This document shows positions 2,704-48,262 of a stretch of 64,000 nt of DNA, piece by piece (position 1 is the first letter of the stretch; each line of letters begins with the position of its first letter). Position numbers and translations under genes: made by a program. This DNA comes from Geoalkalibacter ferrihydriticus DSM 17813 (GTDB taxonomy: Bacteria > Desulfobacterota > Desulfuromonadia > Desulfuromonadales > Geoalkalibacteraceae). A model generated the notes under the pieces. That model ran no database searches. It had not been told where the DNA came from and saw only the letters and a program-made list of their open reading frames with translations. The DNA lies in NCBI RefSeq assembly GCF_000820505.1, contig NZ_JWJD01000001.1, forward strand, positions 1,279,685-1,343,684. The letters run 5' to 3'.

Positions 2704-2715
2704 GCCGTGCATCTC

Positions 2716-3000
2716 CTAGGTCATGCGGAAAGAGACCCCGAATCCGCCTCGGGGATAGCTCCAGCGAGTGAAGGCGTCCTGGCGGCACACCACATAGCAG
2801 GTGCCGCACTCCAGGCAGCCGTCGTAGACGAAGGTCATTTTCTGATCCTCCTCCGACCAGGTATAGCAGCGCGCCGGGCAGGAGTTGGTGCAGCCGCGCT
2901 GATCGCAGCCCACGCACACCGTCGTGTCGAGTACGATGTGCGGCTCGCGGTCGATATGGAAACTGGTGACGTCGAAAATTTCGTCGACGTTGATTTTCAT
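2716..3000 (-). CDS. fixX: FixX-like ferredoxin partner of ETF:quinone oxidoreductase
   Basis: 94 residues starting MKINVDEIFDV. Cysteines occur as CVGCDQRGCTNSC, CYTW and CLECGTCYVVC, the ferredoxin-like pattern of FixX, which carries the Fe-S cluster that in ETF-QO is fused to the flavoprotein. ATG 3000 overlaps the fixC stop (ATGA), so the two are translationally coupled. An in-frame ATG farther upstream would lie inside fixC and is rejected. Confidence 0.88.
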   Translation of the reverse strand: MKINVDEIFDVTSFHIDREPHIVLDTTVCVGCDQRGCTNSCPARCYTWSEEDQKMTFVYDGCLECGTCYVVCRQDAFTRWSYPRGGFGVSFRMT

Positions 3001-4295: not shown

Positions 4296-5320
4296 GCGGC
4301 ACCTCCTGCGGCGGCTTTGACCCGTTCCAGCAGCAGCGGCATGACCGTGTTGAGATCGGTGACGAAGCCTTCATCCGAATTGGGAAAGATCGGCACCTTG
4401 GGGTCGATGTTGAGACTGATGATGCGGCGCGAATCCTTGATGCCGCCGATGTGGTGCATGGAGCCGGAGATGCCCAGCGCCACATAGAGGCGCGGCGCCA
4501 CGGTTTTGCCGGTCTGACCGACCATGCGCTCGAAGCCGGTCCAGCCCAGATCGTACACCGGCCGGGTGACGCCGAGGGAGACGTTGAGCAGCTTGCACAG
4601 CTCAAGCAGTTGCGCAAAGCAGGCCTCATTGCAGCCCAGACCGGCGCTGAAAATCACCTCGGCTTCGGAAACATCCACGGTCTGCGGATCGGGCGGAATG
4701 CGCTCGATGATGCGGGTTTTCCCAGGAGTGGCCGGTGGCGGGCCGCTGATTTCCACCTGCTCGGGCGTGGTGCGGCGCATGGAGGGCAGCAGCGCCGCGC
4801 TCAGAATCTGCGGCAGAGCCGTCAAAACCAGAGTGCCCTGGCCGTCCCAGAACCAGGCTTCCTGCACCCGGCGGCCCAGGGCGCGGCGCATGAGCTTGAG
4901 ACCTTTTTCGTCGCGTGTCGTGGCAACCGCCTCGGTGAACAGGGGGCCGTCGAGTCGCGCTGTCAGCAGCGGCGCCAGGGCCTGGCCGAGATCGTTGTGC
5001 GGCAACAGCACCACGCCCGCGCCCTGCTCGCGGGCCACCTGGGCGATGAGCCTTGCCTGCAGTTCGGGGGAATCGGCGACCGCCTCGTCGGCAGCCAGAA
5101 TCAGCATGCGTGGCACGCCGTAGGCGCCGAACTGCTCCGGCACCTCGGGCGCAAAGCCGGAAAAGCACAGGGTCGACCAAGAGACGTCGAGTTTCTTGGC
5201 GAGGCGCGAGGCCTCGCTGAGCAGGCCCTTGCCGGTTTCTTCCAGTTCGCCTCCGGGCAGTTCGACCACGGCCAGAATCGGGCCCGGCGCAAAAGGTTGC
5301 GGAGATTTGCCGAGGGCCAT
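4292..5320 (-). CDS. etfA: Electron transfer flavoprotein alpha subunit (mycofactocin operon)
   Basis: 342 residues. The C-terminal FAD domain is clear: GLGCNEACFAQLLELC near 230, GQTGKTVAPRLYVALGISGS near 275 and the ISLNIDPKVPIFPNSD stretch near 310. It forms the heterodimer with EtfB. The gene overlaps the OYE-like gene upstream and fixC downstream by a few bases, and etfB lies two genes on. This arrangement puts the ETF and its quinone reductase in one transcription unit with mycofactocin biosynthesis genes. Confidence 0.9.
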   Translation of the reverse strand: MALGKSPQPFAPGPILAVVELPGGELEETGKGLLSEASRLAKKLDVSWSTLCFSGFAPEVPEQFGAYGVPRMLILAADEAVADSPELQARLIAQVAREQGAGVVLLPHNDLGQALAPLLTARLDGPLFTEAVATTRDEKGLKLMRRALGRRVQEAWFWDGQGTLVLTALPQILSAALLPSMRRTTPEQVEISGPPPATPGKTRIIERIPPDPQTVDVSEAEVIFSAGLGCNEACFAQLLELCKLLNVSLGVTRPVYDLGWTGFERMVGQTGKTVAPRLYVALGISGSMHHIGGIKDSRRIISLNIDPKVPIFPNSDEGFVTDLNTVMPLLLERVKAAAGGAA

Positions 5321-7281
5321 CAGATCGACCTCCCTGTTTTGTGGCCTTCCCAGATGGCCATGTCGACCTTGCGCGGAGCCACGCAGTCGCCGATGCGGTA
5401 GAGTTCCTTGACCTTGCCCTTGAGGGCGAAATACAGGTCAGCGTCGACCTGCTGACCCATGGCCAGCACCACCGAATCGAAGGGGCCCCAGGTATCCCAC
5501 TGGTTGGAATAAACGTTGAATCCCTTGATTTCCTTAGAGCCCGCTTCCCCGCCGACTTCCATCACCGCGATGTCGGGTGTGAAGGTCACGCCCTTTTGCA
5601 GCAGGCGCTGGCGCGTCAGGTAAAGATCTTGAGTGGGACCGAGTTCGGCGCCGATAAACAGGCTCGAGGTAATGATGTGCACCGTCTTGCCCATATCTGC
5701 GAGGCGCTCGGCGGTGGCGGTGGCGCGGTGATGGCCGTCGTAGTCGATGAGGCAGACCTTCTCGCCCAGTTCCGGCTTGGCGTCGAGCACCTGCCAGACG
5801 TTGAACACGCCCGGTCCGTCGGCCCCGCCCACGGGATGACCCTTGGGTTGACTGCCGGTGGCGACCACCACCACATCGGGATTGTCTTTGAGGATCTGCT
5901 CGGGGGTGAGTTCGTTTTGCAGGTGCACCTTGACTCCGGCCTTATCGACCTGGTCCTTCTCATTGCGGATGATGACTCCGAACTCGTCGCGTCCGGCGCC
6001 CTTCATGGCGGTGAGCACCTGGCCGCCGAGGTTTTCGTTGCGGTCGAAGAGATCGACCTGATGGCCGCGACGACCGGCCATCTTCGCCGCCCACAGGCCT
6101 GCGGGGCCGCCGCCTACGACCATGACTTTTTTCTTCACCGATGCGGGTTTGAGGGTGCCTTCGCCCCATTCCTTTTCCAGGCCGACGGCCGGGTTCTGAA
6201 TGCAGCCCAGGGAGCGGTTGATGCCCATGCGGCCGATGCAGCCCTGATTGTCGCCGACACAGTAGCGGATGTCCTCAAGCCGGCCTTCCTGGGCTTTTTT
6301 CGGCAGGAAGGGATCGCAGATCAGGGCGCGGCACATGCCGATCATGTCCGACTGGCCGTTGGCCAACACTTTTTCAGCCATGACCGGATCGTTGATGCGC
6401 CCGGTGCAGAACACCGGCAGGTTGATTTTTTCGCGCATGCCCGCCGCTAGGGGAATGGTGTAGCCGAGCGGGGTGTGCATGGAGCCTTCCACCAGGTAGA
6501 GGTTGTAAAAGGTGGCGATGGAGAGGTCCATAAAATCGATGAGGCCGGATTCCTCGAACTTGCCGCCGATTTCCTGGATCTGGCCGAGATCGAGGCCGCC
6601 GGGGATCATCTCATCGGCGCACAGGCGGATGCCGACGGTGAAATCCTTGCCCACCGCTTTGCGCACCGCCTCGATGAACATGAGGGGCGCGCGCATGCGG
6701 TTCTCCAGGCTGCCGCCGAATTCATCCGCGCGGAAGTTGGTCAGGGGCGAGAGAAACTGGCGCGCCAGGCTCGAATGCCCGAACTGCAGCTCTACTCCGT
6801 CGAAACCGCCCTCGCGCACATGCACGGCACTTTTTGCGAAGTAGCGGCAGACTTCTTCGATGTCTTCGGGCTCCATCTCTTTGGGCGTCTCGCGGAACAG
6901 CACGTCGGGCATGGGGCTTGGCGCCCACACCGGCAGGCGCGAGATGCTGCCGTCGCACTGCTGGCCGTTGTGGTTGAGCTGGCAGAACATTTTCGTATCG
7001 AACTGATGCACGTAATCGGTGATCTTGCGGAAACCGGGTATCACCTCTGGATGAAAGGCCTCCACCAGCTTTTCGTAAGCCGTGTCCGTGGGGTGTACGC
7101 TCATCTCTTCGGTGATGATCAACCCCGCGCCTCCTTTCGCCCGCTCGCCCCAGTAGTACATGTGGCGCTCGCTAGGCATGCAGTGCTCGGCGAAATTGGT
7201 CAGGTGCGGCTGAAATGAGATACGGTTTTTCACCTCGACCTGGCCGAGTTTGATGGGCGAGAACAGGTAATCGAACATCAT
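5320..7281 (-). CDS. Mycofactocin-associated FadH/Old Yellow Enzyme-family oxidoreductase
   Basis: 653 residues: an FMN-binding TIM barrel (about 1-340), an Fe-S loop, then an FAD/NAD(P) domain starting VMVVGGGPAGLWAAKMAG near 390, as in 2,4-dienoyl-CoA reductase. The Fe-S loop reads CVGDNQGC...GCIQNP. In FadH-type enzymes this is CxxCxxxC-x11-C, so the second cysteine is replaced by Asp here. The start is ATG 7281 or 7278 after AGGAG. Being followed directly by etfA, etfB and fixCX, it is a candidate for re-oxidising reduced mycofactocin and feeding the ETF (inference). The alternative is a dehydrogenase for an enal or other substrate. Confidence 0.82.
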   Translation of the reverse strand: MMFDYLFSPIKLGQVEVKNRISFQPHLTNFAEHCMPSERHMYYWGERAKGGAGLIITEEMSVHPTDTAYEKLVEAFHPEVIPGFRKITDYVHQFDTKMFCQLNHNGQQCDGSISRLPVWAPSPMPDVLFRETPKEMEPEDIEEVCRYFAKSAVHVREGGFDGVELQFGHSSLARQFLSPLTNFRADEFGGSLENRMRAPLMFIEAVRKAVGKDFTVGIRLCADEMIPGGLDLGQIQEIGGKFEESGLIDFMDLSIATFYNLYLVEGSMHTPLGYTIPLAAGMREKINLPVFCTGRINDPVMAEKVLANGQSDMIGMCRALICDPFLPKKAQEGRLEDIRYCVGDNQGCIGRMGINRSLGCIQNPAVGLEKEWGEGTLKPASVKKKVMVVGGGPAGLWAAKMAGRRGHQVDLFDRNENLGGQVLTAMKGAGRDEFGVIIRNEKDQVDKAGVKVHLQNELTPEQILKDNPDVVVVATGSQPKGHPVGGADGPGVFNVWQVLDAKPELGEKVCLIDYDGHHRATATAERLADMGKTVHIITSSLFIGAELGPTQDLYLTRQRLLQKGVTFTPDIAVMEVGGEAGSKEIKGFNVYSNQWDTWGPFDSVVLAMGQQVDADLYFALKGKVKELYRIGDCVAPRKVDMAIWEGHKTGRSI

Positions 7282-7435: not shown

Positions 7436-8476
7436 TCAGGCCGCCGCCGTTTTCCGTTCATCGGCAATCGAGGTCACGCAGCGCTCCAGACACTCGGGAT
7501 CGCCCCCTTGAATGTCGTTTTTGAGATGATACGCCACTGCCGGACAGCCACCGTGACACTGGTCGAATCGCTTGCAATCCTCGCAGGAATGAATACGCAG
7601 CCCGCGCAGAGACGCAAAAATCGCCGAGTTATCCCAAATGGTCTGAAAATCGCTCTCCCGCAGGGATCCGGCGGTGAACTGCTCGAGCTGCATAAAGGCG
7701 CAGGGGTAAACGTTGCCCGTGGGGCCGACGCAGCAGGTCAGCTTGGCCGCTCCGCACAGGTTGAGTCCCAGGCCCTGGCGCTCCTGCGCGGTGAGGGAGA
7801 AAAAGCTGTCGCCGGTACGCACATCACCGCGGCTCTCCAGCCATGTGGAAAAATCCAGTAGCTGCTGGGGGGTGGGACGCAAGGTTTCCCAGTTGTCGCT
7901 GCCGCGCCCCGAGGGGCGAAAACGGCTCACCCGCAGGGTCACGCCCAACTCGTCGGCCAGATCGTACATGGCGGGGATTTCGCTCGCATTCTGCCGGGTA
8001 AGTACCGTATTGATACTGGTGGGGATGGGGCTCCTGGCGAGCAGGCGCAACGCTCTGATGGCGTCATCGTAAGTGCCTTTTCCGCGAATCGCTTCGCAGG
8101 TGACCTGTTCGGCGCCGTCGAGACTCACCTGGATAGCCACCAGGCGGGTGCGCGAGAGACGCTCGATCAGCGCTGCGTCGAGCAGGGTGCCGTTGGTGGA
8201 AATGCAGGTCATGATGCCGCGCGCATGGCAGGCGGCGAGAATCTCTTCGAAGTCGGGGCGCATGAAGGGCTCTCCGCCGCCGAAATTGATCTGAAAGACG
8301 CCGGTGCTGTACATCTGTTCCACCAGATCGAGGGCCTCGGCGGTGGTGAGTTCGTCCGCCGCCGGATCGCCCGAAGCGGACAGGCAGTGGGTGCAACGCA
8401 GGTTGCACGCATAAGTTACTTCCCAGGTCAGATTGACCGGGGCACGCAGCCCCATTTCAACAAATCTGTTGCTCAC
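7436..8476 (-). CDS. mftC: Mycofactocin radical SAM maturase MftC
   Basis: 346 residues. The radical SAM motif CNLRCTHC sits near residue 20 in WEVTYACNLRCTHCLSASG, typical of MftC. The C-terminal SPASM region has cysteines in CGAAKLTCC, NVYPC, CEDCKRFDQCHGGC and a final CLERC for auxiliary Fe-S clusters. MftC decarboxylates the C-terminal Tyr of MftA and then makes the Val-Tyr carbon-carbon bond. The start is taken as GTG 8476, because AAAGGA lies seven bases upstream and the frame begins SNRFVEMGLRAPVN. It overlaps mftB by 20 nt. An upstream ATG would give a non-homologous tail. Confidence 0.95.
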   Translation of the reverse strand: MSNRFVEMGLRAPVNLTWEVTYACNLRCTHCLSASGDPAADELTTAEALDLVEQMYSTGVFQINFGGGEPFMRPDFEEILAACHARGIMTCISTNGTLLDAALIERLSRTRLVAIQVSLDGAEQVTCEAIRGKGTYDDAIRALRLLARSPIPTSINTVLTRQNASEIPAMYDLADELGVTLRVSRFRPSGRGSDNWETLRPTPQQLLDFSTWLESRGDVRTGDSFFSLTAQERQGLGLNLCGAAKLTCCVGPTGNVYPCAFMQLEQFTAGSLRESDFQTIWDNSAIFASLRGLRIHSCEDCKRFDQCHGGCPAVAYHLKNDIQGGDPECLERCVTSIADERKTAAA

Positions 8477-8714
8477 GGAGAAATCCTTTGTCGAGAAGTT
8501 GCGCCACAAGCTTGCGCACAGCATGTTGCTGCCCGCTCGAGAGTCCCGTCGGCAGATCGTCTCCGGTGCGGGTCTCGCTGAAAAAATCGGCGGGGACAAG
8601 GCTGCCGGTTGCGGCGAAGAGAAGGCGCGGCCCCCTGCTGTCGTAAAACAGGAGGCCGAACCCTTCTTGCCTCACGCGGCAGGCGGGGTGCAGTGTGATG
8701 CCTGCCGCCGCCAT
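8457..8714 (-). CDS. mftB: Mycofactocin precursor-binding chaperone MftB
   Basis: 85 residues. The segment HPACRVRQEGFGLLFYDSRG followed by PRLLFAATGSL is the conserved core of MftB, a PqqD-like RiPP recognition element. MftB binds MftA and presents it to MftC. The ATG at 8714 lies one base beyond the mftA stop (TGA GATG), and mftC starts inside its 3' end, so the three genes are tightly coupled. Confidence 0.93.
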   Translation of the reverse strand: MAAAGITLHPACRVRQEGFGLLFYDSRGPRLLFAATGSLVPADFFSETRTGDDLPTGLSSGQQHAVRKLVAQLLDKGFLREQQIC

Positions 8715-8715: not shown

Positions 8716-8823
8716 TCAGTACACTCCGCAGATGCCGTCGATGGCCAGTTCTTCCACCTGGATCTCTTCAAGAATTTCCGGCTCTTCGTTGCATACCTCA
8801 GTGTTCTGCTTGTCGACTTCCAT
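8716..8823 (-). CDS. mftA: Mycofactocin precursor peptide MftA
   Basis: 35 residues, too short for ordinary gene callers. The leader is acidic (EEPEILEEIQVEE) and the C-terminus is LAIDGICGVY, the invariant mycofactocin core in which the final Val-Tyr is converted to the redox cofactor. AAGGAG lies six bases before ATG 8823. A sigma-54-type promoter is about 65 nt upstream. mftE, which would release the core, is not in the window. Confidence 0.97.
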   Translation of the reverse strand: MEVDKQNTEVCNEEPEILEEIQVEELAIDGICGVY

Positions 8824-25481: not shown

Positions 25482-25829
25482 CTAGGCCTGGATGGACCAG
25501 AATTCCTCCTTGGTGATGACCAGCACCCGGGTCGATTTGCCGTCCGGGTTGATTTGCAGTTCGGCAATCGCCATGCTCTGGTCCGACAACCACGTCTGGG
25601 AGAAAACTCCCAGGGGAACCGCCTCGGGTTTATATTTCTGTCCAATGGGTCTGGCGTTTTTCACAAAGTCGGCGGCTTTCTCCTCGCTTGACCAGACCGG
25701 CAAAGAAAAACCCGTCTTGTCCAACTCCATGGCGTAAATGTTCTTGTGGGTGCCCCTGAGCACCCAGACCTGTGCGGCGTCTTTGCTTTCTTGCAGAAAT
25801 ACCTTTTCGCCGAGGTATTCAATGCTCAT
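25482..25829 (-). CDS. DUF2750 family protein
   Basis: 115 residues. The middle part, VWVLRGTHKNIYAMELDKTG with WSSEEKAADFV, matches the DUF2750 pattern. No catalytic residues are evident. It overlaps the end of the upstream PAS kinase gene by 4 nt and is the last gene of the MoxR-VWA-radical SAM unit. Function unknown. Confidence 0.65.
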   Translation of the reverse strand: MSIEYLGEKVFLQESKDAAQVWVLRGTHKNIYAMELDKTGFSLPVWSSEEKAADFVKNARPIGQKYKPEAVPLGVFSQTWLSDQSMAIAELQINPDGKSTRVLVITKEEFWSIQA

Positions 25830-27742
25830 AGCTGCTCCTCCCGCCCGATGGGCAGTAGCACGGTGAATTGCGATCCTGCGCCGACTCTGCTTTCCAGCCG
25901 GATTTCGCCGCCATGGCGTTTGATGATGTTGTAGGTCAGGGCCAGGCCGAGGCCGACGCCCTGGCCTACTTCTTTTGTGGTGAAAAATGGCTCCCAGATC
26001 TTCTCGCGAATTTGCGGCTCCATGCCGCTGCCCGTATCGCTGATCACGACCGCGATGCGGGTGTCATCCTCCCTGGAGGTTCTGACCTCAACCCGGCCTT
26101 GCTCCGCAATGGCCTGATGGGCGTTGACCAGCAGGTTCATACAGACCTGGCGCAGGCCGGAGGGGTCGCCGGAAATGCGCGGGAGATCCCCCCTGAGGTC
26201 GGTGATGACCTGAATCTTCTGGTAGCCCGGCTGGTAGCGCAACAGTTCAATTACCTCGCGCAGAACGCGGTTGATGTCGACCTTGACGGTCGTGCCGTCG
26301 GATTTGCGGCTGAAGCTGAGCAAGTGGTCGATGATGTCCTTGCAGCGGTAGGATTCGCGCACGATCACTTCGAGATAATGGGGAAAGACATCGAGGCGTA
26401 CATCCTCTTTGAGGATGGGTTCATCACGGAAGCGGCGCAGCAGCGCCTCCGCGCAGCCAGCCACCGAGGTCAGAGGATTGTTGATTTCATGCGCGATGCC
26501 GGTGGCCAGCACGCCGATACTCGACATTTTTTCAGTCTGGATGAGATGCATTTCCTGCAAGCGCTTCTCGGAAACGTCGCGGAAGAAAACCAGGGCGCGG
26601 TTCTTCTCGCCGAGGGTGTCGCGGATCGGGGTTGCGGTGATGTCTAGATAACGGGTTGGCTGCCCCTCGTTTGCGCTGACCAGGCATGTATCCACCCGCT
26701 CGCCCTGGAGCGCCCTTTCGACGGGGCAGTCGTGCGATTCGGCAGCGGATTCGGGATGAAAGATGTCCTGGCAGGACTTGCCCGGCAGGGTCTCCTGAGG
26801 AAAAATCCGCGGACTGATCAGGTTGTGATGCTGGATCCGGCCGTCATGGTCGTAAACCGAGATACCGTCGCCTATGGAATCAAAAATGGTTTGCAGTTCG
26901 TTTGTTTTGTTGCGCAAGTCGACCTCGGCCTGTTTGCGCTGGGTGATGTCCTGGGTGGTTCCGTAGAGTTTGATAACCTTACCCGCAATGTTGAGGGCAG
27001 GTTCGACGATGGAATAGACCCAGCGCAAGCCACCGTCGTCAAAAAGCAGGCGATGTTCGATCTCATAGGTTTTGCCTTGCTCGACCCCCAACCGCAGGTG
27101 TTCCATGACGCTGTCGTAGTCTTCGGGGTGCACCACCCGGGCAAAGGCTTCCTGGGTGGTTTCTTCAGGCCGCAGGTGCAAAATACGCAACAGCTCGGCC
27201 GAGGCTTGAACCTCCCCGGATTCCGGATCAAAGCTCCAGGAGCCCACATGGGTCATGCTCTGGGCCTTGGCCAGATTGTATTCACTCTCCGCCAGCGCTT
27301 GTTCCGCGCGTTGTTTCTCGCTGATATCCACCAGCACAGCGAGGCACTCGCCGCCGGCTTCGCTCGCCAGAGCCTCGATACGCACATACAGCGGGTTGGG
27401 GCTTGGCTGTGCAAGCCGCAGCCGGCAGGTCTGCTTACTCTGATCGGCAAAGACCCGGCGCAGGAATTCTGCGAAAGCCAGGCGGGCGTCAGCGGCGACG
27501 AACTGCGAGAAATTGCGCCCAATCAGTGCGCTGGATTCGACCCCCAGAAACTTGGCGCCCAGCCGGTTCGCCAAGCGAATCCCGCCTGCGTCGTCCAAAG
27601 TGAAATACCCCACGGGGGCTTGATCGTAGAGCTGGGCATATCTGTCGCGCGAGGCCTCGAGGCGTTCAAGGCGGCAGCGCAGTTCTTCGATTTGAGCCTC
27701 CGCAGTGGTCTGTTGGGTTGGAATTTCCTGGTGTTTGTTCAA
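25826..27742 (-). CDS. Cytosolic PAS-domain sensor histidine kinase
   Basis: 638 residues without membrane segments. Three PAS domains lie at about 30-145, 160-275 and 285-400. HisKA contains [20 protein letters not shown] near 420, and the ATPase domain ends [20 protein letters not shown]. The third PAS has cysteines in [10 protein letters not shown] and HDCPVERAL. Its last ~350 residues closely resemble the kinase at 35811-37019, so the two are paralogs. The gene is 36 nt after a radical SAM gene in the same direction. No response regulator is adjacent, so the partner may be the regulator at 34447-35823 (inference). Confidence 0.87.
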
Positions 27743-27778: not shown

Positions 27779-28900
27779 CTACAGGTATTTATCCAGTCCC
27801 ATGTGCCGGACCAGATCGCGGAAATCCTTTCCTCCTCTTTCGGCCAGAAAGCCCAGCAAGGTAAAACCTTCGAGAGGCCAGGCGATGCGCTCCATCCCTG
27901 GCTCGGTACACTGGCTGCATTCGGCAAAGGCTCCGACCTTTTGGCGAAAGCGGTTGGCGGCCGTACAGCGATAGAGACTCTCCAGAGACTGCGACCGGAC
28001 ATTTCCCAAGGACTCTGCCAGGACCGGACAGGGGAAGATCTCGCCATTGTGCCGCGCGAACAGGGTATTGAAGCCCGCCGTGCAGGGCTTGACGATTTTT
28101 CCGGTTCTGAGATAGCCGAGCATGGCTTCGCGGTGGCCGCTCCAGGCGAACCTGGGACTTTTGTAGAAATCGATCATCTTTTTGATGTCTGCGGGGCTGA
28201 AGCGCAGATCCTTGGCCTTGTCCAGGTTGGCAAAGCGGTTGGGCGTCAGGATGCACGGGGAGATAATGGTAAACAACTGGTGTTCGGCAGCGAATTCGGC
28301 AATGCGTTGGAGTTCGTGGACGTTCAGCGGCACGATCGTGGTTTTGAGGCCGAGAATCAGGTTGGCATGTTTGTCCCTGATGTCATTCAAAGCTGACAGG
28401 GTTTGCTCAAAGTGCCCCCAGGCGCCGGGATAATTGCGGATGCGATCGTGAAGCTTGCCCACGGCATCCACGCCGCAAGCCAGAACCATGTCGATGCCGC
28501 GCGCGTGAAGGGGGCCGATGCTTTCGCGGACGATGTGCGCAACGCGCTCGGTGAGCAGGGCGTTTGTGGTGATCGACAGGGTGCGCAGGGCGGGAAAGTG
28601 GTCAGGCTGCAAAGCGGCGATCTGCCGAATAAGTTCACCCAGGTCGCTGCGCAGGAAGGGCTCTCCGCCGGTGATGTCGAGTTCCTTGAGGTGCCGAAGC
28701 GCCGGCGAGCGAAGCACGGCGAGCCATTCGGTGAGATCCAGGTCAGAAACTGTAGCGGGTGTTTTCCAGATGTTGCACATATCACAGCGGCAGATGCAGC
28801 GGTGCGTCACCTCCAGGCTCAGGGATTCGAGCCGGTGGGGCTTGCCGCGGCGCTTGAGAAGGCGAAAGCGCAGGCCGTTGATGAGAAGTTTGGCGATCAC
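27779..28900 (-). CDS. Radical SAM/SPASM protein next to a small CGGY-ending protein
   Basis: 373 residues from GTG 28900. The radical SAM motif CICRCDMC (CxxxCxxC) lies near residue 36 in SLEVTHRCICRCDMCNIW. ITGGEPFLR follows near 80. C-terminal cysteines in CTAGFN, EIFPCPV, CTAANRF and AECSQCTEPG form a SPASM-type region for extra Fe-S clusters, as in peptide- or protein-modifying radical SAM enzymes. GTG 28900 lies four bases after the stop of the small protein gene, with GGGGGA upstream; an ATG at 28936 would overlap it. The gene order suggests that the small protein is the substrate (inference). There is no N-terminal RRE domain. Confidence 0.82.
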   Translation of the reverse strand: MIAKLLINGLRFRLLKRRGKPHRLESLSLEVTHRCICRCDMCNIWKTPATVSDLDLTEWLAVLRSPALRHLKELDITGGEPFLRSDLGELIRQIAALQPDHFPALRTLSITTNALLTERVAHIVRESIGPLHARGIDMVLACGVDAVGKLHDRIRNYPGAWGHFEQTLSALNDIRDKHANLILGLKTTIVPLNVHELQRIAEFAAEHQLFTIISPCILTPNRFANLDKAKDLRFSPADIKKMIDFYKSPRFAWSGHREAMLGYLRTGKIVKPCTAGFNTLFARHNGEIFPCPVLAESLGNVRSQSLESLYRCTAANRFRQKVGAFAECSQCTEPGMERIAWPLEGFTLLGFLAERGGKDFRDLVRHMGLDKYL

Positions 28901-28904
28901 CCGC

Positions 28905-29216
28905 TCAGTATCCCCCGCAGAAACCGTCCTCCGCAACCTCTTTCATCTCGATATCCGCCTTGCTGTCGGCCGGTTTCTTTCCTCCCGCGTGCGGTTTGCC
29001 GATTTCATCAAGGCCGACAACACCGTGGCCGCCTTCAACACTGGGCGCTGTCTCTCCCAGGTGAGCAGCGCAAACGTTCTTGCTGCTGTTGGCCGGGGCA
29101 CCGCAATGGTTGCAATGAATGGTCGGTTTGTCGGACAGGGCCTTGATGCAGTCATCCAACCCCTGGGACTTAAAAGCGCACATGTGCTTTGAGTGGTCCT
29201 TGCTGTCGCAATGCAT
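28905..29216 (-). CDS. Small Cys-rich protein with mycofactocin-like C-terminus (EDGFCGGY); candidate RiPP precursor
   Basis: 103 residues. Cysteines are at 3, 13, 23, 35, 38, 49 and 100. The segment HCNHCGAPANSSKNVC (34-49) could bind a metal. A Gly/Lys-rich linker leads to an acidic stretch and the end MKEVAEDGFCGGY. This parallels MftA of the same window (ELAIDGICGVY): acidic leader, DG, hydrophobic residue, CG, residue, terminal Tyr. A radical SAM/SPASM gene begins four bases downstream. AGGAGG precedes ATG 29216. I infer a ribosomally made, C-terminally modified peptide or protein. The alternative is a metal-binding helper of the MoxR-VWA pair whose C-terminal likeness is chance. Confidence 0.7.
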   Translation of the reverse strand: MHCDSKDHSKHMCAFKSQGLDDCIKALSDKPTIHCNHCGAPANSSKNVCAAHLGETAPSVEGGHGVVGLDEIGKPHAGGKKPADSKADIEMKEVAEDGFCGGY

Positions 29217-29245: not shown

Positions 29246-30637
29246 TTACCAGTGGCTGCGCCCTGTGGGATCGAGGCTTGGCGTCGAATTGCCGCCTCCT
29301 CGCGTGTAATAGTGGCGATAATCATCGTCCTGCTCTTCCTCGGCTTTTTTGATCTCGCGCATGGAGCGGTGGTCCTCCTCAAGATAAATATTGCGGAACA
29401 GATCTTCGACAACCTGGTTTAATTCCTCAACATTTTTAACCACCTCGACCTTGTCGCAATAAGCGCCGTAGGTATCGATCAGGCAATCGCCCCTTTTCCA
29501 TAGCTCACGGTCTTCGGGGGTCAGCCACAGCATGTAGCCGGCCTTCTCGCGCAACTGCTCAAGCACCCAGTCATTGGGCTTGTTGTAGTTATTGCGCGCA
29601 TCGCCGAGAAAAATGACCGCCGGGCGCCCGCGCAGGTTTTCGAGAAATTTCTCTTTGAAGGTTTCAAAGACCTTGCCGTAATCGCTGTTGTCGTCCAGGT
29701 TGACGATCTCGCCGCTGTCAATGGCCTCCATCATCGTGTTGATGGGCGCATTGGCGAGCATTTCCGTGATTTCAGCCAGCTCCGCGTTGAAGATGAAGCT
29801 GCGTACATCCATCAAACGGTTGTGCAGGGTATGCAGCAGCAAGAGCATGAATTGAGAGGCATGGCTGACGGAAAAGCTCACGTCGCACAGCACCACCAGG
29901 CGTGGTTTCTGCTTGCGCCTGCGGCGCAGGACCAGATGAAAGGGCACCATGCCGTGGCGATAGTTTTTCTGGATGGTGCGAATGACATGGATTTTGCCGC
30001 GGTTCTCCATGTTTTTGACGCGGCGGATGTCTTTTTTCAGACGCATGAGCATGCGCGAAACCGCATCATGCATGGCGTCGAGTTCCTGCTGGGAAAAAGT
30101 CAGAGGACGCTTTTGCCCGCTGGGGTGTTTGAAGGCCATGGTGACAGGATTCTGCGGCATGCGCATGGAGGGTCGCGGGGCTTGCATCGCCCCCTGGTAA
30201 TCCTTGAGGCGGATCTCCATTTCCGAGCCGTCGAGCTGATCGAGACCGATTTCCTTGAGGCTCTGCAGGTCTTTGAGATCTTCGGGGCTCAGTCCCGCTT
30301 CGACCATGGCCAGGCTCATGTTTTCATTGACCATGTCCGGGTTGGTGCCGAGCATCTCCTCGGCTTCCATGCTCAGGATCGCTTCCTGCAGCAGGTCGGC
30401 GGGGTCAGGTCCCTCGCCGTTGGCTCCGCTGCTGAAAAAGCGCTCGAAAACCCTGTCGAAACTCTCCATGTCATGAATATTCTTCACCAGGGTCAGGCGC
30501 AGCAGGCTGCGCACCGCTCCGCGTCCTTCCAAACCGCCATGCGCCAAAGCGCAAACTGCATCAAGGCTCTCGCCGGGTGAGACCCGCAGACCTTCCTTGC
30601 GCAATTCGGCGACGAATCTGGTGATGATGGTTTCCAT
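29246..30637 (-). CDS. VWA-domain protein (CoxE-like), MoxR partner
   Basis: 463 residues. The C-terminal half is a von Willebrand A-type domain with the metal-ion site DxSxS in VVLCDVSFSVSHASQF near residue 250. GDARNNYNKPNDW and DRELWKRGDCLIDTYG follow, as in the CoxE group. The N-terminal half is helical and acidic. MoxR/CoxD-type AAA ATPases act with VWA proteins to insert metal or activate enzymes. The gene starts 2 nt after moxR and precedes the small Cys protein by 29 nt. Its likely client is the alcohol dehydrogenase just upstream or the aldehyde oxidoreductase (inference). Confidence 0.83.
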   Translation of the reverse strand: METIITRFVAELRKEGLRVSPGESLDAVCALAHGGLEGRGAVRSLLRLTLVKNIHDMESFDRVFERFFSSGANGEGPDPADLLQEAILSMEAEEMLGTNPDMVNENMSLAMVEAGLSPEDLKDLQSLKEIGLDQLDGSEMEIRLKDYQGAMQAPRPSMRMPQNPVTMAFKHPSGQKRPLTFSQQELDAMHDAVSRMLMRLKKDIRRVKNMENRGKIHVIRTIQKNYRHGMVPFHLVLRRRRKQKPRLVVLCDVSFSVSHASQFMLLLLHTLHNRLMDVRSFIFNAELAEITEMLANAPINTMMEAIDSGEIVNLDDNSDYGKVFETFKEKFLENLRGRPAVIFLGDARNNYNKPNDWVLEQLREKAGYMLWLTPEDRELWKRGDCLIDTYGAYCDKVEVVKNVEELNQVVEDLFRNIYLEEDHRSMREIKKAEEEQDDDYRHYYTRGGGNSTPSLDPTGRSHW

Positions 30638-30639
30638 GC

Positions 30640-31542
30640 TCAGCCTAGTTCCTCGGCGGCCAGTTCCACCACCCGCTGCAGGTCGGCCTGATGCTTGGAG
30701 ATGACGCCGACGGTGTTGGCGACCACGTCCGGCGTCAGTTTGGACACATGCAGGATGGAAAGGACTTCCGCCCAGTCGAGGGTTTCCGAGACGCTGGGGG
30801 GCTTGCGCAGGTTGAGTTCGCGGGCCTTGCGCAGAAAGCCCACCATCTGCTGCGCCAGTTCTTCACAGATATCGGGAAAGCGGGCGCGAACGATCTGCAC
30901 TTCGCGCTCCAACTCAGGGTAGTCGATGTAGAGGTAGAGGCAGCGACGCCGCAGGGCGTCGGAAATCATGCGGGTGCCGTTGCTGGTAAGGATGGCCAGG
31001 GGTTTTCTTTTGGCCTCGATCACTCCCAACTCGGGAATCGACACCTGAAAATCGCTCAGGCACTCCAGCAGCAGGGCTTCGAATTCATCATCGGAACGGT
31101 CGATCTCGTCGATCAGCAGAACCGAGCGCTTTTCCGAGAGGAAACTGCGCAGCACCGGGCGTTGGACCAGAAAATTGCGGGAGAAAAACAGACTTTCCTC
31201 ACTGGCCAACTGCTCCACGGCGTCGCGCAGGTCGGTTGCTTCGGCGAGTCGGTTGTCGAGCTGGGTTCGCAGCATCTGGGTGTAGAGCAGCTGCTTGCCG
31301 TATTCCCAATCATAGAGAGCCTTGCCTTCGTCGATCCCTTCATAGCATTGCAAGCGCACCAGCGGAAAGTCCATGACCTGGGAGAGGGTCTTGGCCAGGC
31401 CCGTTTTGCCAACACCGGGCGGTCCCTCGATAAGTATTGGTTTTTCCATCCGCAGTGCGAGAAAAACTGCGGTGGCGATGGCTTCGTCGGCGATATAGCC
31501 GCCGTCGCGCAGCCCATCTTTTACCTCTAGTTGAGTCATCAT
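30640..31542 (-). CDS. MoxR-family AAA ATPase
   Basis: 300 residues. Walker A is GPPGVGKTGLAKTL near residue 40, Walker B is VLLIDEIDRSDDEFE near 140, and sensor 1 is LAILTSNGTRM near 180. ALRRRCLYLYIDYP contains the arginine finger region typical of MoxR. MoxR proteins are chaperones for metalloenzyme or dehydrogenase assembly; the first was found with methanol dehydrogenase. ATG 31542 follows GAGG. It heads a unit with the VWA gene, the small Cys protein, a radical SAM protein, a kinase and DUF2750, and lies downstream of an Fe-ADH. Confidence 0.88.
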   Translation of the reverse strand: MMTQLEVKDGLRDGGYIADEAIATAVFLALRMEKPILIEGPPGVGKTGLAKTLSQVMDFPLVRLQCYEGIDEGKALYDWEYGKQLLYTQMLRTQLDNRLAEATDLRDAVEQLASEESLFFSRNFLVQRPVLRSFLSEKRSVLLIDEIDRSDDEFEALLLECLSDFQVSIPELGVIEAKRKPLAILTSNGTRMISDALRRRCLYLYIDYPELEREVQIVRARFPDICEELAQQMVGFLRKARELNLRKPPSVSETLDWAEVLSILHVSKLTPDVVANTVGVISKHQADLQRVVELAAEELG

Positions 31543-31589
31543 GGTCAGCCTCGTGGGGTGAGGAAAATAATAGTTGCCAACGCAAGAGC

Positions 31590-31666: not shown

Positions 31667-32872
31667 TTACATGCAGCCTTTGAACACGGCGCGCATATTT
31701 TCAAAGCCGATATCCACCGGGTTGCCTTCGGAGCAGATGTCTGCCGCGGCGAACTTGGACAGCCCGTCGAGGTCTTTTTCCTGCAGCCCGAGATCCCCGA
31801 ACCGGGTGGTGATGCCCAGGTCATCCTTGAGTTCCTGAATCATATCGATGAACTTCTCACCGGCTTTGATGTCAGACATTCCCTCAGTATTGATACCGGC
31901 GGCACGCGCCATCATGGCGAAGCGCTCGGGGCAGGCGGGCAGGTTGAGGCGGCATACGTCAACCATGGCGATGGCGTTGCACAGACCGTGGGGTGAGTCA
32001 TAGAGACCGCCCATGGCGTGTGCCATGCTGTGAATGATGCCCAGACCGGCGCTGTTGAAGCTGTAGGCGGCGGCCATCTCCGCCCACACCATCTGCTCGA
32101 TGGCCTTATCGTTGTTGCGGTTGGCAGCCGACTGACGCAAGTTGCCGAAGATTTCGGTGATCGCCCAGAGGCCCGGCCCGTAGGCCGACTGTACGCACAG
32201 GCGTGAGGCGATGGCTTCAACGGCATGGGCCAAAGCATCCATGCCGGTGTAGGCGGCGAGATCGCCGGGCATGCACTGGTGCAGCAAGGGATCGTTGATC
32301 GATTTGCTCGGGGTGCATGCCGGATCGAACAGAGCCATTTTGTACATTTTCTCGGTGTGGTTGATGATCGAGAAGCAAGAGACTTCCGACCCGGTGCCCG
32401 AGGTGGTATTGATGGCGAGTTGGGGGAGCTTGTTCTTCTTGGTCGCTTTGAAGGCGCCTTCGAAACTGCGCACGTCCTGACCGTCGTGGCTGTAAACCAG
32501 CTTGATCGCTTTGGCGCAGTCGGTGGTGCTGCCGCCGCCTATGCTGATGATGCCGTCGAACTTGCCCGAGGAAAGCACCTTGGCGCCCTCCATGACTTCA
32601 AAGTCTTTGGGATTGGGGGTGGCCTTGTCAAAAACTTCGGAGGAAACGCCGGCATGCTTGAGCACGCCCTGGATGGTCTCGATGATCCCGGTGCCTCTGA
32701 GACCGGTGGTGACGATGAGAGCATTGCTCATGCCCAGGGCCTTGGCTTCGTTGCCGACCATGGTATGCGCACCCCAGCCGACGTTCACCGAAGGGTAGGC
32801 GTGCTGCATCCTGATGGGATATTCCTGTCGTTCGTTGGAGAGCTTGCGTTTTGCGTCTTTGAAATGGGGCAT
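31667..32872 (-). CDS. Iron-type alcohol dehydrogenase resembling NDMA-dependent methanol dehydrogenase
   Basis: 401 residues. Nucleotide contact IISIGGGSTTDCAKAIK lies near 105. Metal ligands are in TGMDALAHAVEA (Asp, His), IIHSMAHAMGG (His) and DSPHGLCNAI (His). Stretches VGWGAHTMVGNEAKALG, TTGLRGTGIIE and NPKDFEVMEGAK resemble, from memory, the actinobacterial nicotinoprotein methanol/alcohol dehydrogenases, which hold NAD tightly and depend on mycofactocin. That makes this the likely mycofactocin user (inference). The start is ATG 32872 with GGAGG upstream; the longer frame is rejected. A strong sigma-54 promoter lies at 33049-33064. Confidence 0.88.
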   Translation of the reverse strand: MPHFKDAKRKLSNERQEYPIRMQHAYPSVNVGWGAHTMVGNEAKALGMSNALIVTTGLRGTGIIETIQGVLKHAGVSSEVFDKATPNPKDFEVMEGAKVLSSGKFDGIISIGGGSTTDCAKAIKLVYSHDGQDVRSFEGAFKATKKNKLPQLAINTTSGTGSEVSCFSIINHTEKMYKMALFDPACTPSKSINDPLLHQCMPGDLAAYTGMDALAHAVEAIASRLCVQSAYGPGLWAITEIFGNLRQSAANRNNDKAIEQMVWAEMAAAYSFNSAGLGIIHSMAHAMGGLYDSPHGLCNAIAMVDVCRLNLPACPERFAMMARAAGINTEGMSDIKAGEKFIDMIQELKDDLGITTRFGDLGLQEKDLDGLSKFAAADICSEGNPVDIGFENMRAVFKGCM

Positions 32873-33216
32873 GTGTACTTCCTCCTGTTGCTGGTGAGAG
32901 TTTACTTGCTGCCGCATCCTTGGTGGCCGGTGTCTGAGACACTCCGCCACCTCCTCATAACTTTGTTTTAGCGAAACCTTTGGTGGCCTCCATTAAACAC
33001 TTGGTTAATGTTCATCCAAGCCTGTGGCGACACTGGGTTGTCTACAGAGCAAGGAGGGTGCCAAACGGAAATACTGTTTTATAGTGCCGGTTTGCGGGCT
33101 TTTGAGGGAGGGCGTCAGGGGTCGCTGTGAGAGTGCGGGGAATTCCGAAACAGGTTGAAGGGAGGATGGGCGTGGCAGCCTAGGGCGTTTGTCCACACTG
33201 GGGAGTTTTGCCCCGC
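32873..33216. other. Intergenic region upstream of the Fe-ADH
   Basis: The 344-nt gap carries the ADH ribosome binding site, a ~165-nt untranslated leader, the sigma-54 promoter at 33049-33064 and GGAAATACTGTTTT just upstream of it. A 194-residue minus-strand frame crossing it is a shadow of the radical SAM gene and is not called. Confidence 0.6.
33049..33064 (-). promoter_or_regulatory. Sigma-54 promoter of the NDMA-type Fe-ADH
   Basis: The minus strand reads TTGGCACCCTCCTTGC, with GG-N10-GC and a nearly perfect -24/-12 consensus. The start of transcription would be near 33037. Three bases upstream is GGAAATACTGTTTT (33067-33080, plus strand), related to a motif near the second ADH promoter. 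The sigma-54 regulator at 34447-35823 is the likely activator (inference). Confidence 0.85.
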
Positions 33217-34446: not shown

Positions 34447-35823
34447 CTAAGCCGGCAAATCGTAGCGGTCCAATTTGGTGTAGAGGGTTTTGCGGTCGAT
34501 TTCGAGGATCTTCGCCGCCCTGCTTTTGTTGCCTTCAACCTTGTCCAGAACATTGCGAATGTGCTCACGCTCAATAACCCACAGCGGCAGGGGCGGCGCT
34601 TGCGGGGTCGCGCCGAGCTGAACCTCGGCAGGAAAGAGTTTGGGCGGGGCAAAGGGTAATAGATCGGCGGTAATCACCCGCTCTGCGGCCAGAATCGAAG
34701 CGCGGCGCATGGTGTTGCGCAACTCACGCACGTTGCCCGGCCAGTGGTAGGCACGCAGGGAGGCCATGGCTTCAGGCGATATCTCCCAAGGGCCTTGGCC
34801 GGGTCCGGAGCTGCTTTGCAGAAAAAACCAGGCCAGGGGCAGGATGTCCTCGGCGCGCTCGCGTAGCGGCGGGATAAGAATGGGCAGCATGTTGATGCGA
34901 TGAAAGAGGTCATCGCGAAACTCGCCGGCATCGACTTTGTCTTCGAGCTTTTTGTTGGTGGCGAAGACAAAGCGCACATCGACGCTGATGTCCCGATTTC
35001 CCCCCAGGCGCCGGAATGTGCCGGTTTCGAGGATGCGCAGCAGCTTGACCTGGACATCGAGAGTCATTTCCGAGACTTCATCCATGAACAGCGTGCCCTG
35101 ATGCGCCAGTTCGAACAGCCCTGCGCGACCTTTGACCGCGCTGGTAAAGGCGCCCTGCATGTGGCCGAACAGCTCGCTCTCGGCGGTGTTCACGTCAAGG
35201 CGCCCGCAATTGACGGTGACAAAGGGTTTTTGCGCCCGGGGACTGCTTTCGTGCACCGCGCGCGCCACCAGTTCCTTGCCGGTACCGCTCTCACCGAAAA
35301 TAAGCACATGCTCGTCGACGGCCCCCCAGCGTTTCACCGTGTCGAGCACCTGCGTAATCGCCTGACTCTTGCCGACGATCTGGTGATTGTCGAGTTTCTG
35401 CATTTCGAGTTTAAGGCTGATGTTTTCGAGTCGCAGGCGGTTTTTTTCATGGGCCTTGGTGATGACCAGGTCAAGCTCGTCGAGCTTGACGGGCTTGGTC
35501 AGGTAATCGTAGGCACCGTGCTTGATGCATTCAACGGCTGTTTCGATGGTGCCGTGCCCGGTGAACATGATGATCTCGGGAACGCTGGATTCGCTCTTCA
35601 TCTGCTTGAGTATTTCGACGCCGTCGCTGCCGGGCATGCGGATATCGAGCAGCACCACGTTGAAAATCTCTTCGCGGTAACGGGCCAGTCCTTCCTCGCC
35701 ATTGCCGGCGACCTGAACTCTGTGGCCGCTGCGGCGCAGCTCGGACTGCAGCAGCTCGCGCAGGGGTCTTTCGTCTTCCACAATCAGAACTTTGGCGACA
35801 TCGCCACGCTTTACATTTGACAT
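34447..35823 (-). CDS. Sigma-54-dependent response regulator (NtrC family)
   Basis: 458 residues. The receiver starts VLIVEDERPLREL, with Asp in VVLLDIRMPGSDG (~60) and TKPVKL (~110). The AAA domain has Walker A GESGTGKELVARAVH (~172) and Walker B TLFMDEVSEM. The sigma-54 contact loop reads GAFTSA instead of the usual GAFTGA. The C-terminal helix-turn-helix is NKSRAAKILEIDRKTLYTKL. ATG 35823 overlaps the kinase 3' end by 13 nt. The likely targets are the Fe-ADH, porin and perhaps mft promoters (inference). Confidence 0.9.
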   Translation of the reverse strand: MSNVKRGDVAKVLIVEDERPLRELLQSELRRSGHRVQVAGNGEEGLARYREEIFNVVLLDIRMPGSDGVEILKQMKSESSVPEIIMFTGHGTIETAVECIKHGAYDYLTKPVKLDELDLVITKAHEKNRLRLENISLKLEMQKLDNHQIVGKSQAITQVLDTVKRWGAVDEHVLIFGESGTGKELVARAVHESSPRAQKPFVTVNCGRLDVNTAESELFGHMQGAFTSAVKGRAGLFELAHQGTLFMDEVSEMTLDVQVKLLRILETGTFRRLGGNRDISVDVRFVFATNKKLEDKVDAGEFRDDLFHRINMLPILIPPLRERAEDILPLAWFFLQSSSGPGQGPWEISPEAMASLRAYHWPGNVRELRNTMRRASILAAERVITADLLPFAPPKLFPAEVQLGATPQAPPLPLWVIEREHIRNVLDKVEGNKSRAAKILEIDRKTLYTKLDRYDLPA

Positions 35824-37019
35824 ACAGGTAATCTCACCTTGAAAGTGCAACCTCTGTTCACCTGACTGGCCACCTCAATGCGGCCTTGGTGTCGCTCGAT
35901 AATGCTGTGGGTGATGGCCAGGCCCAACCCCAGGCCGTCGCCGACGGATTTGGTGGTGAAAAACGGATCCCAGATCTGATCGAGATGCTCCGGCGGGATG
36001 CCGCATCCTGAGTCGCGGATTTCCACCATCACTTCGTCGTCGACGGCGAGGGTGCGGATTCTGATGCGTCCCGGCCCCTTGATGGCCTGAATGGCATTCA
36101 TGGTCAGGTTCATGAACACCTGGCGTAGAGCGGCGGCATCGGCATTGATGCGCGGGATGTCGCGTTGACGGTCTTCCTCAATGCCGACCTCTTCCTGGCT
36201 GGCTTTGTTGCGGACCAGGTCGAGCACTTCGTCGATGACCTCGTTAATGTCCACCAACCCCACCGAACCATCGGAGCGGCGGCTGAAAGTCAGCAAGCTG
36301 TCGATGATATTTTTGCAGCGATAGGCTTCGCGCATGATCACCTGGAGGTACTCGGGAAACACCTCCAGGCCCAGATTCTCTTGCAGTCGCGGATTTTCGC
36401 GCAAGCGCCGCAGCAGCGCCTCTGCATAGCCGGCCACCGAGGTCAGGGGGTTGTTGATCTCGTGGGCGACGCCGGCGGCGAGCATGCCGATGCTCGACAT
36501 TTTTTCGGCTTGCACCAGTTGCAGTTCCTGAACGCGGCGTACCGTGACGTCGCGCAAAAACACCAGGGCGCGAGTCTGCCCCTGGGGATCGAAAATGGGC
36601 GAGGCGGTTACGTCGAAATAGCGGTTTTCGTCCCCGGCGCTGCTGTTGGTGAAGGACATCTGGTTGCTTTCGCCGCCGAGGGCTTTTTCAACCGGGCACT
36701 GTGCGGGCGCATTCTCCGCTTCGGGATGAAACAGGTCGCGGCAGGTTTTTCCCGGCATGGTCTGTTCGGGAAACAGCTGTGGGCAGACGTGATTGCGGTG
36801 CTGGATGCGCCCGCTGCCGTTGTACACCAGCACCCCGTCGCTGATGGAGTCAAACACCGCCTGCAGCTCGCTTTTTTTCGCGTGCAGGCTGGCGTTGGCC
36901 ACTTCCAGCTCGCGGATTTTCTGTTTGACCTCAGCATAGTAGCCGATTTTCGAGCTCTCGATGCCAAGCAGGCGATCCAGGCTCGCCTCATCGATGCGGG
37001 TTGGCTTGATCTCGTCCAT
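35811..37019 (-). CDS. Cytosolic PAS sensor histidine kinase paired with the NtrC-type regulator
   Basis: 402 residues, no membrane segment. A coiled N-terminus leads to one PAS domain (about 50-165) holding GKTCRDLFHPE and AQCPVEKAL cysteines. HisKA is [20 protein letters not shown], and the ATPase ends GLGLGLAITHSIIERHQGRI. It is a short paralog of the kinase at 25826-27742. ATG 37019 overlaps the stop of the second Fe-ADH (TGATG), so translation is coupled. The signal is presumably intracellular and may be redox or an alcohol-derived metabolite (inference). Confidence 0.9.
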   Translation of the reverse strand: MDEIKPTRIDEASLDRLLGIESSKIGYYAEVKQKIRELEVANASLHAKKSELQAVFDSISDGVLVYNGSGRIQHRNHVCPQLFPEQTMPGKTCRDLFHPEAENAPAQCPVEKALGGESNQMSFTNSSAGDENRYFDVTASPIFDPQGQTRALVFLRDVTVRRVQELQLVQAEKMSSIGMLAAGVAHEINNPLTSVAGYAEALLRRLRENPRLQENLGLEVFPEYLQVIMREAYRCKNIIDSLLTFSRRSDGSVGLVDINEVIDEVLDLVRNKASQEEVGIEEDRQRDIPRINADAAALRQVFMNLTMNAIQAIKGPGRIRIRTLAVDDEVMVEIRDSGCGIPPEHLDQIWDPFFTTKSVGDGLGLGLAITHSIIERHQGRIEVASQVNRGCTFKVRLPVCQM

Positions 37020-38194
37020 CAAAAGGCTCTTTCCAGAATCCGCAGCAGATCGGTTTCGTCAGCCTCACGTGGTGACGTCAGAATGCACACATCGCTCAGG
37101 GCATTGTGCGCCAGTTGGGGCAGATCCTCGCGCTTTACTCCCAGGCTGCTCAGGGTGCGAGGTGCGCCGGCGGCATCGAGCATGTGCTCGATTTTTTCCT
37201 CGACCACCTCGGCCGCGTCCCGGTCGCTCAGGTCTTTGTGTCGTGCCAGGGTCCAGGCCAGCTCCGGAAGCTTTTCGGTTACCACCGGCAGGTCGTAGCG
37301 GATCACCTCGGAAAGCAGTACCGCATTGACGCTGCCGTGATTGATGTCGTAGAGGCCGCCGATGGGGTGAGCAAGCGCGTGAACGATGCCGAGCAGAGAA
37401 TTGGAAAAAGCCATGCCGGCGTGCAGGCTGGCCCGTGCCATGCGTTCCAGATCGTCCGGTTGCTGTTCGCGCACCGCCCTGACCAGCCCGTCGGAGAGCA
37501 GGCTCAGGGCGCGGATGGCATTTACGTCGGTAAGGGTCGAGGAGGCCACTGAAAAATAGGCTTCCAGGGCGTGGCTCAAGGCATCGGTGGCGGTGGTGCA
37601 GATAAACTCTTCCGGCAAGGTCGCCAGGGTATCGGGATCGGTGAGACTGATGTCGGGGGCCACGCAGCGGCTCATGATCGTCAATTTGCAGTGGCGCTGG
37701 GTGTCGTTGATTATGGCGAACTGGGAAACATCTGAGCCGGTACCGCAGGTCGTCGGACACAGGACCAGCGGCGGCAGAGGGCGGCTGATTTTGTCCGAGC
37801 CTTCAAAGTCGCGGATGTTTCCGCCGTTGGAGACCAGGATGGCAATGCCTTTGGCGGCGTCCATGGCGCTGCCGCCACCCAGCCCGACGATGACGTCGGC
37901 GCCCTGGCGGATGTACTCCCTGGCTCCGGTTTCGACTTCATGATCCTTGGGGTTAGGGGTGATCTGGTCGAAGTAGACGAAATTCAGCCCGGCTTCCAGC
38001 AGGCTGTGCATGGCTTGGTCAACCCAGCCGGCGTTGAACAGACCCTGATCGCTGACAAGGAAGACCTTGTTGCCGCCGAGGCGCCGGGCGCAGGAGCCGA
38101 TCTGGGTGAGCAGGCCACGTCCGAAAATGATTTCCGGCACTTCAAATTTGCAATGATGAAGGGCGGGATTTTTCTTTTTTTCATCTTGCCCCAT
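37019..38194 (-). CDS. Iron-containing alcohol dehydrogenase (second copy)
   Basis: 391 residues. VGLGGGSAMDAAKG near 100 binds the dinucleotide. Metal ligands are in TATDALSHALEAYFS, IVHALAHPIGGLYD and INHGSVNAV. It is a standard group III Fe-ADH of the butanol/ethanol dehydrogenase type, less like the nicotinoprotein group than its neighbour at 31667-32872. AAGGA lies seven bases before ATG 38194. It leads an operon with kinase, regulator and radical SAM genes. A weaker sigma-54 promoter is ~70 nt upstream. Confidence 0.9.
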   Translation of the reverse strand: MGQDEKKKNPALHHCKFEVPEIIFGRGLLTQIGSCARRLGGNKVFLVSDQGLFNAGWVDQAMHSLLEAGLNFVYFDQITPNPKDHEVETGAREYIRQGADVIVGLGGGSAMDAAKGIAILVSNGGNIRDFEGSDKISRPLPPLVLCPTTCGTGSDVSQFAIINDTQRHCKLTIMSRCVAPDISLTDPDTLATLPEEFICTTATDALSHALEAYFSVASSTLTDVNAIRALSLLSDGLVRAVREQQPDDLERMARASLHAGMAFSNSLLGIVHALAHPIGGLYDINHGSVNAVLLSEVIRYDLPVVTEKLPELAWTLARHKDLSDRDAAEVVEEKIEHMLDAAGAPRTLSSLGVKREDLPQLAHNALSDVCILTSPREADETDLLRILERAF

Positions 38195-48256: not shown

Positions 48257-48262
48257 CGTTTA

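Follow-up and report, generated by a model that had tools for sequence, protein, structure and literature searches.

The locus described here raises the question of whether the C-terminal region of a mycofactocin precursor can be carried by an unrelated protein and, if so, which enzymes might act on it. It lies in a 64,000-nt stretch of the Geoalkalibacter ferrihydriticus DSM 17813 genome (the window, which denotes the whole stretch of DNA analysed) and comprises an ORF for a protein of 103 residues (28905-29216, reverse strand) ending in ...MKEVAEDGFCGGY* (EVAEDGFCGGY), followed by a gene for a radical SAM enzyme (rSAM1), whose GTG start codon at 28900 is separated by a gap of four bases (28904-28901) from the preceding stop codon (28905-28907). 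A preliminary description had taken the pair for the possible precursor and dedicated maturase of a new mycofactocin-like RiPP and had compared the end of the 103-residue protein with the IDGICGVY terminus of MftA. The coordinates, the sequences and the spacing of the genes were borne out, including the position of MftA at 8716-8823 (reverse strand); the roles proposed for the two gene products fared less well, as set out below.

The tailed protein and its genomic setting

The relevant genes of the window, all on the reverse strand (-), form a mycofactocin cluster (392..7281 from ORFs and curated models, followed by MftC, MftB and MftA) and a cassette around an iron-containing alcohol dehydrogenase (Fe-ADH), whose edges were set by conserved synteny:

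392..1810 (-): MftF
1807..2712 (-): EtfB-like protein
2997..4295 (-): ETF-QO-like protein
4292..5320 (-): mycofactocin EtfA-like protein
5320..7281 (-): OYE family 2 protein
7436..8599 (-): ORF of MftC, with the true start probably inside; TIGR03962, 355.6 bits (cut-off 265); CX2CX5CX3C motif
8457..8708, approximate start (-): MftB peptide chaperone; TIGR03967, 63 bits (cut-off 33)
8716..8823 (-): MftA, 35 aa, end EEIQVEELAIDGICGVY; proposed as the tail's source or model
25826..27742 (-): PAS histidine kinase (PAS, HisKA and HATPase_c in Pfam), one edge of the cassette
27779..28900 (-): rSAM1, radical SAM enzyme with a short SPASM/twitch-type C-terminus; C35/C39/C42 and C273, C291, C328, C331
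28908..28952 (-): MftA-like C-terminal tail, residues 89-103, IEMKEVAEDGFCGGY; delimited by the pattern common to four unrelated carriers and by bounded DNA conservation
28983..29216 (-): Cys/His-rich carrier domain, residues 1-78; tail-free in relatives
29246..30637 (-): VWA/CoxE-like protein; PF05762, 107.6 bits; NF047783 (MadC) below cut-off
30640..31542 (-): MoxR-type AAA+ ATPase; PF07728, PF00004; NF047784 (MadB) 307 bits, below the cut-off of 475
31667..32950 (-): Fe-ADH; PF00465
33217..34431 (-): rSAM2, radical SAM enzyme with the full SPASM motif CX2CX5CX3C; the ORF probably extends upstream of the true start
34447..37022 (-): two-component pair (sigma-54-type response regulator, histidine kinase), the other edge of the cassette

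Within the window, MftB, MftC, MftF and OYE family 2 all score above their curated cut-offs (in 392..7281: TIGR03965, 372 against 280; TIGR03997, 947 against 793; NF038209, 146, below its cut-off of 240). No MftE or MftD above the curated cut-off was detected in positions 392-8867, nor in the eight genomes of the class tested, and the late steps therefore probably use enzymes other than the mycobacterial ones, even for mycofactocin itself.

The gene order of the cassette is histidine kinase, sigma-54-type regulator, sometimes MoaA and rSAM2, Fe-ADH, MoxR ATPase, VWA protein, Cys-rich protein and/or tailed carrier, rSAM1 and/or glycerol dehydrogenase, and PAS histidine kinase. The best NCBIfam match of the Fe-ADH is the NDMA-dependent methanol dehydrogenase family TIGR04266, whose cut-off of 625 bits it does not reach (306 bits). 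That clade and the Geobacter PF00465 dehydrogenases connected with mycofactocin by Haft 2011 (PMC3023750) are its closest known counterparts: the Fe-ADH is nearest to the clade, and MftC co-occurs with the cassette. It differs in its score below the family cut-off and in its association with MoxR/VWA and a tailed gene. A literature search for MadB and MadC yielded unrelated proteins only. Elsewhere in the window (47453-61937), two similar tandem gene groups look like subunits of iron-sulphur and molybdopterin oxidoreductases.

At E<=1, no NCBIfam model matches the Cys-rich protein, the curated MftA precursor model included; in Pfam, it shows a sub-threshold zinc-ribbon match only, with no family of either collection above cut-off, and its AlphaFold model is unusable (pLDDT 39). 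It ends in EDGFCGGY rather than in IDGxCGVY with a terminal Val-Tyr, and its gene lies inside the Fe-ADH/MoxR/VWA cassette, ~20 kb from mftB and mftC instead of adjacent to them. Small proteins resembling its first ~50 residues (C..H..H.C, CxxC) were observed in 74 of 147 related genomes (e.g. L023-L038), mostly without a tail.

A conserved, carrier-independent tail confined to the cassette

When 277 genomes of the class (Desulfuromonadia) were searched with a DNA pattern encoding DGxCG[GA]Y* at the C-terminus, 28 matches in 27 genomes were obtained, as opposed to 5 for the reversed DNA pattern used as a control, and all 28 sit on four kinds of carrier. A sample of the phylum, the outermost group searched, gave one further match, in an ORF without a carrier; within the phylum, the tail is thus essentially absent outside the class. 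Six genomes with variant tails were added by looking inside cassettes (G002, DGFRGGY; G107, DEVCGGY; G150, DGIRGGY; G238, AGSCGGY; G223 and G253, TGSCGGY), which brings the tail genomes to 33 by our own count over carriers, although only the exact-match figures are free of the resulting bias. In these 33 genomes, the carrier is the Cys-rich protein in 13, a thiol peroxidase in 12 (of which one has a frameshift and another has lost its domain), an M24-peptidase relative (PF00557) in four and a peptide of 55-75 aa in four; genus g54 alone holds all four kinds. No relevant account of the motif or of such tails was found in the open-access literature searched.

The borders of the tail are sharp. 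When unrelated carriers from a single genus are compared, DNA identity is ~0.25 upstream, 0.62-0.79 in the 63-nt tail and ~0.28 downstream, and synonymous codons vary inside DGxCGGY. In a thiol peroxidase carrier (NF001808; 214 bits against a cut-off of 123 for an intact example), residues 9-169 out of 185 can be aligned to solved peroxidases; because homology stops there, immediately ahead of the tail, the tail is an extra on this protein, which otherwise corresponds to Tpx and differs from it by ~16 additional C-terminal residues. In one relative, G150, the tail is kept without the peroxidase domain: the gene (L182:8879-9034) is cut to 51 codons and retains the N-terminus and the tail, with Cys replaced by Arg, as if selection acted on the tail. 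The same Cys-to-Arg change occurs on a different carrier in a second genome (L136:9459-9779, DGFRGGY, beside DGIRGGY in L182). Tail-free relatives of the Cys-rich protein end cleanly at the carrier boundary, and the neighbouring gene is often tailed instead. Relatives thus either keep the tail or stop just before it, and the freely varying C-terminus that would have spoken against the preliminary description was not observed. Nor is the Cys-rich domain indispensable as precursor; it turned out to be one of four interchangeable carriers.

Aligned over fifteen columns, the tail matches MftA. The consensus of 33 distinct tails (among them a chance match from G499) is I-x-[ITV]-[KR]-[QE]-[VIL]-P-x-D-G-[VIF]-C-G-[GA]-Y, with I-Q-V-E-E-L-A-I-D-G-I-C-G-V-Y as its MftA counterpart, and the simplified form IxVKQVPxDG[IVF]CGGY corresponds to MftA (IQVEELAIDGICGVY) column by column. 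Conservation of the last seven positions is partly built in, because the search fixed or limited them; positions -15 to -8, which lie outside the search pattern, are conserved too, with Ile at -15 in 30/33, Lys at -12 in 24/33, Val, Ile or Leu at -10 in 32/33 and Pro at -9 in 26/33 tails. Together with the excess over the control, this supports the earlier view that the terminus is a real, conserved, MftA-like element. The residue before Tyr, for which the pattern itself demanded Gly or Ala, is Gly or, in four genomes (G049, G056, G092, G151), Ala; a peptide with the tail ends in QIPVKQVPMDGICGGY, MftA in EEIQVEELAIDGICGVY. As noted before, Gly at this place rules out the bond between Val Cbeta and Tyr Calpha found in mycofactocin; Ala, which has a beta carbon, is the exception. 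In sum, the tail and MftA (TIGR03969) share the C-terminal pattern I-x-V-x-[EQ]-[LV]-[AP]-x-D-G-x-C-G-x-Y, and MftA, MftB, MftC and MftF are encoded in the same window. The tail departs from the MftA system in having Gly or Ala instead of Val before Tyr, in its fusion to folded proteins (peroxidase, M24 relative, Cys-rich domain) and in the location of its gene in a dehydrogenase cassette rather than beside mftBC. By its defining features it is not an MftA, although it would, if the model proposed below holds, function like an MftA core placed on other proteins.

Association with mycofactocin genes and with rSAM1

The cassette tracks the mycofactocin system. Its VWA protein was detected in 61 and MftC in 60 of the 277 genomes, with 54 in common (Fisher p=1e-42), and the tail was present in 32 of the 61 cassette genomes, while 32 of the 33 tail genomes contain the cassette (26 of 27 for exact matches; in the exception, G159, the tail lies on a 3-kb contig). 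MftC occurs in 29 of the 33 tail genomes (24 of the 27 exact-match ones; p=2e-18); because the genomes are related, these p-values overstate independence. Where no MftC was found, G003 has the mycofactocin OYE (OYE2) and G107 has MftF beside rSAM1 (L170), which brings the tail genomes with a mycofactocin gene to 31 of 33. In G092 (86% complete) and G210 (98%), both drafts, neither MftC nor a mycofactocin OYE above cut-off was found. Since MftC co-occurs in 54 of 61 cases, Fe-ADH, MoxR and VWA (29246-32950) probably constitute a unit for alcohol oxidation that depends on mycofactocin and is equipped with a metal-insertion-type chaperone pair. Within cassettes, tail and MftC are not associated (28/32 with and 26/29 without tail, p=1); the presence of MftC therefore follows the cassette rather than the tail, and a link of the tail to MftC tighter than that of the cassette was not seen. 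No tail was found in 29 of the 61 cassettes, and the tail is thus not essential. For the protein queries, only the best first-look candidates were scored across genomes, and single absences in paralog-rich families may consequently be false.

rSAM1 was described as a radical SAM/SPASM protein lacking an MftB/PqqD-like domain. Pfam detects Radical_SAM (44 bits, cut-off 29.5) and SPASM (35.4 bits, cut-off 21.5) and no domain of the latter type; the SPASM motif CX2CX5CX3C, present in MftC and rSAM2, is absent. No NCBIfam equivalog was identified; the 25 best families shown are all far below cut-off, and TIGR03962 is not among them. The AF2 model (mean pLDDT 93.6) has SkfB, BlsE and CteB as nearest solved folds, a mix of peptide and small-molecule enzymes to which rSAM1 is ~17% identical; rSAM1 falls outside the curated families, and its substrate may be a peptide or a small molecule.

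The distribution of rSAM1 shows that it is dispensable. An ortholog is present in 19 of the 33 tail genomes and absent from 14, some of them rated 99-100% complete; in these, the best other matches to a profile of 23 orthologs reach E values of 1e-21 to 1e-32, compared to <=1e-173 for orthologs. An obligate maturase role was rejected on these grounds, and at 19/33 tail and rSAM1 do not show the co-occurrence of a RiPP precursor with its maturase; of the two points that the preliminary description had put up for checking, conservation of DGxCGxY was found, coupling to this radical SAM family only in part. In many mycofactocin clusters, rSAM1 adjoins MftF or MftC; it lies beside MftF also where the vicinity contains no tailed gene, and elsewhere stands alone with no visible precursor. 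A spirochaete contig (L058) carries the operon MftA-MftB-MftC-rSAM1-MftF with no CGGY tail, which ties rSAM1 to mycofactocin independently of the tail. rSAM2, also considered as an obligate maturase, was discarded because its presence is no different in cassettes with and without tail (26/32 and 22/29, p=0.76); it was detected in 57 of the 277 genomes by a search that can miss copies (G148 has one in L137), and none of its best NCBIfam matches reaches the cut-off. In Desulfobacterales, rSAM2 often lies between MftF and rSAM1.

Candidate fates of the tail

In the presence of MftB, MftC starts by oxidatively decarboxylating the C-terminal Tyr of MftA (PMC5264612) and next bonds Val Cbeta to Calpha of the resulting unsaturated tyramine (PMC9062424). 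The tail keeps the MftA pattern with Gly or Ala for Val, so that the first step would be possible and the second, with Gly, would not; this favours a decarboxylation dependent on MftB and MftC. Our preferred reading, to which we assign a probability of roughly 0.45, is recognition of the tail by MftB and MftC, followed by oxidative decarboxylation of the Tyr at its end. The gene would then encode a carrier protein to which a copy of the tail of the mycofactocin precursor has been added. The peptide chaperone MftB and the radical SAM enzyme MftC, encoded ~20 kb away, would recognise the 15 residues as they do MftA, with ...IPVKQVPMDGICGGY as the substrate end, and MftC would leave a tyramine-type group (unsaturated, as with MftA) on the protein. 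The Val-dependent mycofactocin ring would not be made, because Gly, or Ala in four genomes, precedes Tyr; with Ala, it would be possible only in principle. The modified tail might stay on the carrier or leave as a small product, and in either form would serve the mycofactocin-linked Fe-ADH cassette around its gene, with rSAM1 as an optional partner that could add a second modification in some lineages. We infer that MftB binds the tail, that MftC decarboxylates its Tyr and that it plays a part in alcohol oxidation; MftB binding is not certain, because P in the tail replaces the A of MftA, and K/Q replaces E/E. Decarboxylation is further challenged by the missing association of tail and MftC within cassettes, by the two tails with Arg for Cys, by the 29 cassettes in which no tail was found and by G210 and G092, in which no mycofactocin gene was found.

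The main rival to decarboxylation, serious though on balance unlikely, is that the tail is never modified and acts as a docking or decoy motif for MftB, MftC, the Fe-ADH or the MoxR/VWA pair, bringing a carrier such as the peroxidase to the mycofactocin machinery or regulating cofactor synthesis. Retention of the MftA recognition residues with replacement of the cross-linked Val by Gly or Ala is what docking would lead one to expect, and loss of Cys from two tails and the lack of a tail-MftC association within cassettes point the same way. However, the C-terminal Tyr is always the exact end of the motif, as it should be if an enzyme acts on this Tyr or on the terminal carboxylate, and in relaxed scans of cassettes without an exact match D, G and C were seen to be replaced, whereas the last Tyr never was, evidence that is partly built in because the searches were anchored on a final aromatic residue.

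As dedicated maturase for a new mycofactocin-like RiPP with the Cys-rich protein as precursor, rSAM1 appears improbable. The operon with its 4-nt gap argues for it, as do a tree in which the tail-adjacent copies, directly adjoining the tailed gene, fall into two separate clades, its greater frequency in tailed cassettes (19/32 as against 8/29, p=0.02) and the peptide thioether enzymes SkfB and CteB among its nearest solved relatives; these points are countered by its absence from 14 tail genomes, its occurrence beside MftF or elsewhere without tailed genes, its lack of CX2CX5CX3C and cassettes that contain rSAM1 and no tail (L051, L156). The carriers could instead be delivery vehicles from which MftC and a peptidase free a dipeptide-type product, a second free cofactor beside mycofactocin. 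Although one kind of carrier is merely a peptide of 55-75 aa, like MftA, and the tail outlives the carrier domain in G150, a folded, conserved protein such as the thiol peroxidase would make an odd leader and neither MftE nor MftD exceeded the cut-off in the eight genomes tested, which makes this proposal highly improbable. Chance, or an ordinary C-terminus, has nothing but the shortness of the motif in its favour and was rejected as negligible given the 28 matches against 5 in the control, the four carriers at one cassette position and the bounded DNA conservation.

If decarboxylation by MftB and MftC does take place, the ends of whole proteins may be within reach of mycofactocin chemistry: its enzymes would act on full-size proteins, beyond a dedicated peptide, and the tails would represent a new C-terminal protein modification as well as natural substrates without the cross-linked Val. 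A bolder version, which we regard as rather improbable, is a protein-anchored relative of mycofactocin, in which MftB and MftC turn the C-terminal Tyr of whole proteins such as the thiol peroxidase and the Cys-rich protein into a tyramine-type group, redox-active or otherwise reactive, and this group participates when electrons leave the captive NADH of the Fe-ADH; a radical SAM enzyme that makes a cofactor would then double as a C-terminal protein-modifying enzyme. Even if the tail is unmodified, a 15-residue module that passes from one protein to another, unrelated one without leaving its cassette would provide a direct handle on partner recognition by the mycofactocin machinery in anaerobic alcohol oxidation.
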